Part shown: positions 3,055 to 60,511 of the stretch, piece after piece
Layout of the letters: each line of letters starts with the position of its first letter
Numbering within the stretch: position 1 is the stretch's first letter
NCBI RefSeq assembly: GCF_021462505.1
Contig: NZ_JAKEDV010000002.1
Span: 219,352-283,351 of the forward strand
Direction of reading: 5' to 3'
Source: Thermus brockianus
GTDB lineage: Bacteria > Deinococcota > Deinococci > Deinococcales > Thermaceae
DNA length: 64,000 bases
The notes under the pieces: generated by a model
Told to the model about the DNA's origin: nothing
What the model saw: the letters and a program-made list of their open reading frames with translations, nothing else
Database searches by the model: none
Translations under genes and position numbers: made by a program

Positions 3055-3710
3055 TCGCCCTCTTCCAGCAAGATCCCCTGGCCTTCTTGCTAGCCTTCGC
3101 CGCCTTGCTCTTTAGCCTTTCCCTCCACGAGTGGGGGCACGCCTACGCCGCCTTCCGCTTTGGGGACGATACCGCCAGGCGCTTGGGCCGCCTCAGCCTG
3201 AACCCCCTAAAGCACCTGGACCCCTTGGGTACGGCGCTCCTCTTTCTGGTGGGTTTTGGCTGGGCGAAGCCTGTGCCCGTCAACCCCTTAGCCTTCCGCA
3301 CCTACCGGCTTGGCCTTTTCGCCGTTTCCGTGGCGGGGATTGTCCTGAACCTCCTCCTCGCCGTTCTCTTCGCCCTCTTGGTGCGGGGGCTTTATGCCGT
3401 GGACCCTTGGGCCGTGGCCCTGGCCTTCCGGGGGGAGGGGGGTGGGGCGGTGGGGGTGTTGGCGGTGGCCTTCTTCTACGCCAGCTCCGTCAACCTGGTC
3501 CTGGCGGTCTTCAACCTCCTGCCCATACCGCCCTTGGACGGCTCCAAGATCCTGCAAAGCCTCCTGCCCCTTTCCTGGCACCCCCTCTTTTGGCGGCTGG
3601 AGAGCTACGCCTGGCTTTCCTTTCTGCTCCTCCTCACCGTGCTTCGGGGCCCGGTGCAGGAGGTGTTGCGCCTTGCCCGCAGGGTGTTTTTCGGGTTTTT
3701 CTTTGGTTAG
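3051..3710 (+). CDS. site-2 protease family M50 peptidase
   Basis: Intramembrane zinc metalloprotease, 219 aa. HEWGH at residues 26-30 gives the two His ligands and the catalytic Glu; [12 protein letters not shown] near 155-166 provides the distal Asn-Pro and the third, Asp, ligand. Several hydrophobic segments surround these motifs. There is no PDZ or CBS domain, so this is the minimal Rip/YwhC-like group. Substrate unknown. It is coupled to the pseudo-protease upstream through an ATGA overlap. The TAG stop forms part of the putative -10 box of the next gene. Confidence 0.92.
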
Positions 3711-56610: not shown

Positions 56611-59316
<2,706 letters not shown>

Positions 59317-59414
59317 GCGGGCTCCTTTCCCTTCCCCCATGGGGCAAAGGGCTTGAGCAGTCGGTTTGTGGGGGGAAGTGTTCCCGAGGGGGGGCGCCCA
59401 CCCCGGCTTTCCCC

Positions 59415-59420
59415 ACTATA
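59415..59420 (-). promoter_or_regulatory. -10 box of acnA overlapping upstream stop
   Basis: TATAGT on the minus strand, containing the TAG that ends the AhpD-like pseudogene. Predicted start near 59408, giving a leader of about 92 nt for acnA. No clear -35. Confidence 0.45.
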
Positions 59421-59721
59421 ACACCTCCAAAAGGGACGTGGCGTGCCCTAGGACGGCGTTGGCCTGGGCCTGGCAGGCGATTTTTAGGGTTTCCAGGAGC
59501 TCCTCCTTGGAAATGCCGAGGCCCTTGGCCCGGTGGGCCATGGCCTTCACGCACGCAGATGAACCCGTGGCTAGGGTGGTGCCTAGTAAGGATGCGGGTG
59601 CGGGTCCTCTCGTCCAGCGCCCCCTTTTCCGGCTACGGCCGTGTACCAGAAGAAGCCCTGGGGCCTTTTCCGTTAGGAGGGGAATGGCTTCGGGGAGGCC
59701 CTCTCCCAGGTTTTCCCGCAT
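59416..59721 (-). pseudogene. AhpD/carboxymuconolactone-decarboxylase-like gene with scrambled reading frame
   Basis: An open frame of 101 codons whose ends look like a CMD/AhpD-family protein (RENLGEGLPEAIPLLTEKAPG; CVKAMAHRAKGLGISKEELLETLKIA) but whose middle (LLLVHGRSRKRGRWTRGPAPASLLG) is nonsense. The family-like middle exists in the other two frames: GFFWYTAVAGKG in +1 and GALDERTRTRIL in +2, before returning to the first frame at TTLATGSS. Three single-base shifts of one sign would restore it. The second Cys of a redox pair is not evident. Either decayed or affected by sequence errors (a GGGGG run lies at one junction). Confidence 0.7.
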
Positions 59722-59749
59722 GGCCCTTGGCGCCTTTTCGTGGGTGCGA

Positions 59750-59755
59750 TCTATA
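59750..59755 (-). promoter_or_regulatory. -10-like box upstream of AhpD-like gene
   Basis: TATAGA on the minus strand, 4 nt after the stop of the alpha/beta hydrolase gene; a start near 59743 would leave a short leader before the ATG at 59721. Confidence 0.35.
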
Positions 59756-59758
59756 CCC

Positions 59759-60511
59759 TTAGCGTAGGGCCTGGGGTGGGGGAGGGGTGTCCCACCCTAG
59801 GCTTTCCAGGAAGAGAAGCACCTCCTCCTGGATCTCCCGCCAAAGCGCTTCCCGGGGCCTTTGGGCCGGGCGGTCGCCTTTCTGCGGGCCGTAGGCGCCG
59901 AAGCCCGCATGGTTGAGCCCTGGGATGAAGACGATGCGGGCGTTCTTTGGAAGTAGTTTTGCCTTCCCCCGGGCTTCTTCCGGAGGGAGGAGGCCATCCT
60001 CCGTGCCGAAAAGGGCCAGGGTGGGGAAGCTTTCCCCGGAGAGGTCGCCCTCCGGGTAGCTGGCGAAGAGGACCAGGGGGAGCTTCTCCCGGGCGGCGAG
60101 CTCCGCCGCCACCACCCCGCCCAGGCTATGCCCCCCCACCGACAGGGGAAGGCCCGGGTGGGCGGCCTTGGCCTTCAGGGCCGCCTCCTTGGCCAGGAGG
60201 GCGATGCCCGAGGGGACCTTTAGGAGGACCACCAGGTACCCCGCCTTGGCCACGGGGGCCAAAACGGGGGCGTAGGCCAAGGGCTCCACCCGGGCCCCAG
60301 GGTAGAAGGCGAGGAGGGCCTTGGGGCTTTTGGGGGAAAGCTCTAGCCCGTAGGGGGCCTCCTTCACCTCCAGGCCCGTGCCCCTAAGGGCCTCTTTCAC
60401 CCAGGGCTCGGCCTTGAGGGGCCGCAAAAAGTAGAGGCTCACCCCCACGACCCCCAGGGCCAGGAGGGTGGCGGCGAGGAGGAAGAGGAGGAGGAGCTTG
60501 CGGGCGTCCAC
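59759..60511 (-). CDS. membrane-anchored alpha/beta hydrolase
   Basis: 250 aa, GTG start. N-terminal transmembrane helix (about 6-28), then a compact alpha/beta hydrolase domain: GGHSLGGVVAAELA with nucleophile Ser, LALFGTEDGLLPP with the acid Asp, and PGLNHAGFGAYG with the His. Resembles the abhydrolase group of small envelope-facing esterases. Substrate unknown. It starts 3 nt after the RND pump stop and is probably co-transcribed with it. Confidence 0.88.
   Translation of the reverse strand: MDARKLLLLFLLAATLLALGVVGVSLYFLRPLKAEPWVKEALRGTGLEVKEAPYGLELSPKSPKALLAFYPGARVEPLAYAPVLAPVAKAGYLVVLLKVPSGIALLAKEAALKAKAAHPGLPLSVGGHSLGGVVAAELAAREKLPLVLFASYPEGDLSGESFPTLALFGTEDGLLPPEEARGKAKLLPKNARIVFIPGLNHAGFGAYGPQKGDRPAQRPREALWREIQEEVLLFLESLGWDTPPPPQALR

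Follow-up and report, generated by a model that had tools for sequence, protein, structure and literature searches.

An open reading frame beside acnA in Thermus brockianus is probably what remains of a TTHA0727-type gene

Introduction

A reading frame that runs uninterrupted from an ATG to a stop codon may encode a protein, or it may have stayed open by chance after the gene that contained it was broken. This question is raised by a frame in a 64,000-nucleotide stretch of Thermus brockianus DNA (the window). The frame retains parts of a CMD-family protein at both ends and reads as something else in the middle. We examined which family the frame belongs to, how it differs at the DNA level from the same gene in related genomes, whether the differences are real, and what lies around it. 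The features discussed are listed in Table 1.

Table 1. Features of the locus, in window coordinates
Feature	Position	Strand	Basis
TTHA0727-type CMD-family pseudogene, native extent	59416..59754	-	mutated start codon to TAG stop
Leftover open frame, 101 aa plus stop, internal ATG start	59416..59721	-	ORF list
Site of the native start codon, with ATA here and ATG in G007, G021 and G024	59752..59754	-	alignment
Codon 37: GTA (Val) here, Glu in orthologues (E37V)	59644..59646	-	alignment
Junction of 16-bp deletion relative to ten same-genus orthologues, placement ambiguous by 2 bases	59633..59634	-	DNA alignment
46 bases out of native frame, deletion to insertion	59588..59633	-	frame reading and alignment
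Single inserted base (A on minus strand), returning the ORF to native frame	59587	-	alignment
Alpha/beta hydrolase (abhydrolase) gene, TTHA0728-like, upstream of the pseudogene, intact	59759..60511	-	
acnA (aconitate hydratase) from conserved ATGAAGGAT start; presumably so named, from the look of the sequence	56611..59316	-	
TGTTATAGT, extended -10-like element holding the pseudogene stop codon; putative acnA promoter	59415..59423	-	
Conserved imperfect palindrome, GC-rich, at a constant distance from the -10-like element; putative operator at acnA transcription start	59384..59406	-	

Results

The open frame was confirmed as described in the initial annotation. The site of the native start codon lies 33 bases upstream of its ATG. 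The pseudogene is the last gene before acnA, and the abhydrolase gene lies on its other side. Reading of the three minus-strand frames placed MRENLGEGLPEAIPLLTEKAPGLLLVHGRS at the start and LLGTTLATGSSACVKAMAHRAKGLGISKEELLETLKIACQAQANAVLGHATSLLEVL at the end of the ORF frame, and PEKGALDERTRTRIL in one of the other two. The segment ALDERTRTRIL, with PEKG before it, is a genuine part of the CMD-family protein and lies outside the frame of the ORF. The third minus frame contains GFFWYTAVAGKG; the same DNA in orthologues reads GLLLEHGRSWTFAMPEKG, and no Pfam model matched the 29-residue out-of-frame segment that holds GFFWYTAVAGKG. At this DNA the ORF's own frame begins GLLLVHGRS, compared to GLLLEHGRS in the orthologues, and the match holds up to the deletion. 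The earlier description of a family signature spread over three frames was therefore sound for ALDERTRTRIL and mistaken for GFFWYTAVAGKG, which is a chance out-of-frame reading without a family motif.

The ORF matched TTHA0727 of Thermus thermophilus (PDB 2cwq) well beyond chance (E 7.1e-36), and an intact orthologue from Thermus sp. 2.9 aligned to 2cwq over all 117 residues (E 6.1e-63). Against the Pfam CMD model (PF02627) the ORF scored 19.3 bits, under the gathering cut-off of 23, compared to 44.5 bits for the intact orthologue L007. Its best match and its two neighbours, abhydrolase and acnA, assign it to the TTHA0727 orthologue group as a pseudogene. It lacks the unbroken frame, the native start and the W42-P47 segment that a working member of the group requires. 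The AhpD model TIGR00777, with a cut-off of 191.95 bits, gave the ORF 12.8. AhpD alkylhydroperoxidase, as in Mycobacterium tuberculosis, shares with TTHA0727-type proteins the broad CMD-like structural family; unlike AhpD, TTHA0727 is without the CxxC motif. The ORF has no CxxC either: SSACVKAM holds a single cysteine, as do the orthologues at this place. Four matches to other CMD-family genes, on three contigs, remain in the genome. The structure of TTHA0727, reportedly determined by Ito et al. in 2006, is said to be that of a CMD-family protein distinct from both CMD and AhpD.

In what PMC3141380 says of TTHA0727, Ser70 takes the place of the catalytic cysteine of AhpD and the function is unknown. 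On that account peroxidase activity is not expected, and "AhpD-like" is best read as a family label and not as an activity. The operon list in PMC4948773 includes TTHA0729 (AcrB-type), TTHA0728 (AB_hydrolase_5) and TTHA0727, and as far as that list goes the order in T. brockianus (AcrB-type transporter, AB_hydrolase_5 abhydrolase, pseudogene) agrees with it. TTHA0727 of T. thermophilus HB8 is thus an orthologue by sequence, with an agreeing operon place, of a gene whose T. brockianus copy is broken by a 16-bp deletion, a one-base insertion and loss of the start codon, and also carries E37V.

These lesions were defined in a DNA alignment of the locus from ten same-genus orthologues with an unbroken core and two relics, and in a second alignment of four sequences that included the three nearest orthologues. 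The 16 bp missing in T. brockianus were present, and the extra base was absent, in all ten orthologues, and the same was true of G071, a genome of a neighbouring genus. The lesions are therefore two, of opposite sign, involve two frames and sum to -15, which gives 101 residues here compared to 106. The initial annotation had posited three single-base shifts of the same sign, and the orthologue alignment rejected these. Neither indel sits in a homopolymer run. W42, A45, M46, the PEKGALDEKTRTLI segment and E37 were lost or scrambled in the ORF, and its ends were well kept, with 75% identity to the sister protein. AlphaFold models had low confidence for both the ORF (mean pLDDT 65.1) and an intact control (61.5), which fared no better, and neither model enters the interpretation.

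The figure of ten intact orthologues is generous, since it includes G009 and G022, which have lesions at their ends. In G022 (L009 / L029) the start codon is replaced by AGG, and in G009, Thermus caliditerrae (L014 / L031), the 3' end carries a 28-base tandem duplication, though both were counted as intact.

To describe selection on the gene, G021 and G024 were used to polarise the changes. The gene had 13 nonsynonymous and 10 synonymous changes on the window branch, and the sister branch had 3 and 14 (Fisher p 0.022). Ten ambiguous changes (5 of each class) and the six codons that the deletion touches are left out of these counts. On the window branch acnA showed 5 nonsynonymous and 16 synonymous changes (p 0.036 against the gene), and the intact abhydrolase gene showed 8 and 11, no different from the gene (p 0.54). 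The ratio of 13:10 is also under the neutral opportunity of about 2.4-3.0. A ratio that resembles that of the abhydrolase and falls below neutral suggests either that the loss is recent or that constraint has been only partly relaxed. Recent loss fits best, and the selection counts are not proof of it on their own.

The openness of the frame was assessed by reading orthologues in the frame that the deletion imposes. The homologous 15-codon stretch was free of stops in six of the ten same-genus orthologues; the remaining four (G021, G003, G010 and G016) had a stop. With a GC content of 67% and most orthologues stop-free in that frame, the openness needs no special explanation.

Could the break be an artefact? 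The initial annotation had offered, as one of two explanations, a cluster of sequencing errors at homopolymers. In favour of errors made in sequencing or assembling an intact gene are the small number of indels, only two, the intact neighbouring genes and the draft state of the assembly, which has 24 contigs. The species has a second assembly, G011, which is identical at 3303 of 3303 bases around the gene, the scrambled segment included base for base. Both assemblies possibly come from one laboratory, but elsewhere over 47 kb they differ: the first 20,000 bases held 4 mismatches and the second 20,000 held 0, and of the last 7006 bases 6959 aligned, with 6 mismatches and one gap, so G011 is not a copy of the window assembly. 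In addition, homopolymer errors do not take the form of a 16-bp deletion, and this one is accompanied by the changes at the start codon and E37. The gene is intact in the nearest species, G007, which groups with T. brockianus at 100/99 support in the acnA tree. Together with the G011 identity, this places the break on the species' own branch and leaves sequencing error as a very unlikely cause. The comparison with orthologues in sister species had been suggested in the initial annotation as a check, and its outcome, an intact gene in G007 and ten orthologues without the lesions, favours the other explanation given there: a decaying gene kept open by chance compensation. Lesions that are absent from close relatives and present in a second assembly of the species are those of a bacterial pseudogene.

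Two further explanations would keep the locus functional. The frame could encode a remodelled, shortened protein that begins at the internal ATG and has a new stretch of 15 residues in place of 20. The open frame, the well-conserved ends and the window-branch ratio below neutral are consistent with such a protein; set against them are the loss of the native start, the loss or scrambling of the W42 to PEKGALDEKTRTLI region and of E37, and the Pfam score under the cut-off, and the 3' end may be kept instead for the overlapping acnA promoter. A shortened product with native ends may possibly be made from the open frame; a functional one we consider improbable. Alternatively, programmed frameshifting might yield the full protein at translation, since pieces of the native frame do lie in two frames. 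A frameshift cannot restore 16 missing bases, however, and this explanation, which would also require two opposite shifts inside 46 bases with no slippery run at either junction, was rejected on the missing bases and has almost no probability. Decay of the gene remains the preferred reading.

Across the genus, acnA was present in all 27 genomes, and the TTHA0727-type gene had an unbroken core in 10, was broken in 4 (the window genome, G011, G006 and G019) and was undetected in 13. The abhydrolase gene lay directly upstream of acnA in 11 of the 13 gene-less genomes; in G025 and G005 an abhydrolase match was looked for upstream of acnA and none was found. A minimum of 7 transitions between the intact and lost states was required on the acnA tree. 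A count allowing only losses gave 9, made by hand on this tree, in which some branches are weak. G071 has an intact gene at the same place, which suggests that the gene was probably present in the common ancestor.

G006, Thermus arciformis (L017, L048, L056), and G019 (L018, L032) contain independent relics in which the middle is rearranged or missing. Like the T. brockianus copy, these relics lie at the abhydrolase-acnA locus, with about 30 C-terminal codons left. Their lesions differ from those of T. brockianus, and the match in G006 holds two TAG stops. In G018 (L050) the gene is cleanly gone: the abhydrolase gene ends directly at the -10-like element, and the TAG of this element seems to act as the abhydrolase stop codon.

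The last codons of the T. brockianus pseudogene, GGTGTTATAG, include most of TGTTATAGT. Upstream of acnA, TGNTATAGT was found in 26 of 27 genomes (the exception being G025), among them 12 of the 13 gene-less genomes, and 20,000 simulated background sequences, each of 300 bases, gave no match. In these 26 genomes the element thus has the sequence of an extended -10, with TGN and a -10 hexamer in a conserved position. Downstream, CCGGGG(C/T)GGGC(G/A)C(C/T)CCCC was present in all 27 genomes and, in all 26 that have the -10-like element, began seventeen bases after its first base. In the palindrome form CCGGGGCGGGCGCCCCCCCTCGG, 16 of 23 positions agree with the reverse complement. A genome-wide search with the 23-bp palindrome returned one perfect place, upstream of acnA, and one match with two mismatches; a reversed-pattern control also returned one match. 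The palindrome therefore looks unique to this place in the genome. Folding of the acnA leader RNA gave no sign of structure (z 0.31), and Rfam returned only a sub-threshold snoRNA match. In the two outgroup genomes (L071, L072) the sequence upstream is different and includes TACAAT and a GC-rich stretch.

Judging by their sequence, the -10-like element and the palindrome are probably the acnA promoter and an operator at the transcription start. A wider proposal seems to us about evenly balanced. The pseudogene stop codon would lie in the extended -10 of the acnA promoter; the 23-bp palindrome would be the operator of a genus-wide, undescribed aconitase regulator, a 5' RNA element being the less likely alternative; and the 3' end of the relic would be kept by the promoter of its neighbour and not by a function of its own. 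Judged by the titles and opening lines of abstracts that we searched, no paper dealt with this pseudogene or with an aconitase operator in Thermus.

Discussion

We conclude, with a probability of roughly 0.92, that this locus holds an ordinary, recent, species-level pseudogene of a TTHA0727-type gene in which two indels happen to leave an open frame. The ancestor of the species would have carried an intact gene of 117 residues, of the CMD family, with the abhydrolase gene on one side and acnA on the other. After the split from the G007 species, the start codon would have been lost on the species' own branch, followed by the 16-bp deletion and the one-base insertion, an order of events that we infer, and amino acid changes including E37V would have gathered on the same branch. 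The indels, summing to -15, would let an internal ATG open a frame of 101 codons, with about 15 scrambled codons between native ends. The final codons of the gene were probably retained as part of the putative acnA promoter. From the state of the sequence, it is likely that no functional protein is made from the pseudogene.

The initial annotation rightly suspected a break and was wrong about how many lesions there are, their sign and where they lie. Its warning that an annotator trusting the ORF alone would record a false protein was correct, and the finding keeps a false 101-aa protein out of databases. It also provides a clear case of a pseudogene in GC-rich DNA that stays open through two compensating lesions.

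The conserved putative control region of acnA is of more interest than the pseudogene that overlaps it. A putative promoter element in the stop codon would explain the survival of the last codons, and the conserved element points to a putative aconitase regulator. The repeated loss of the gene in Thermus suggests that many lineages can do without the TTHA0727 family, for which a structure has been solved and no function is known.
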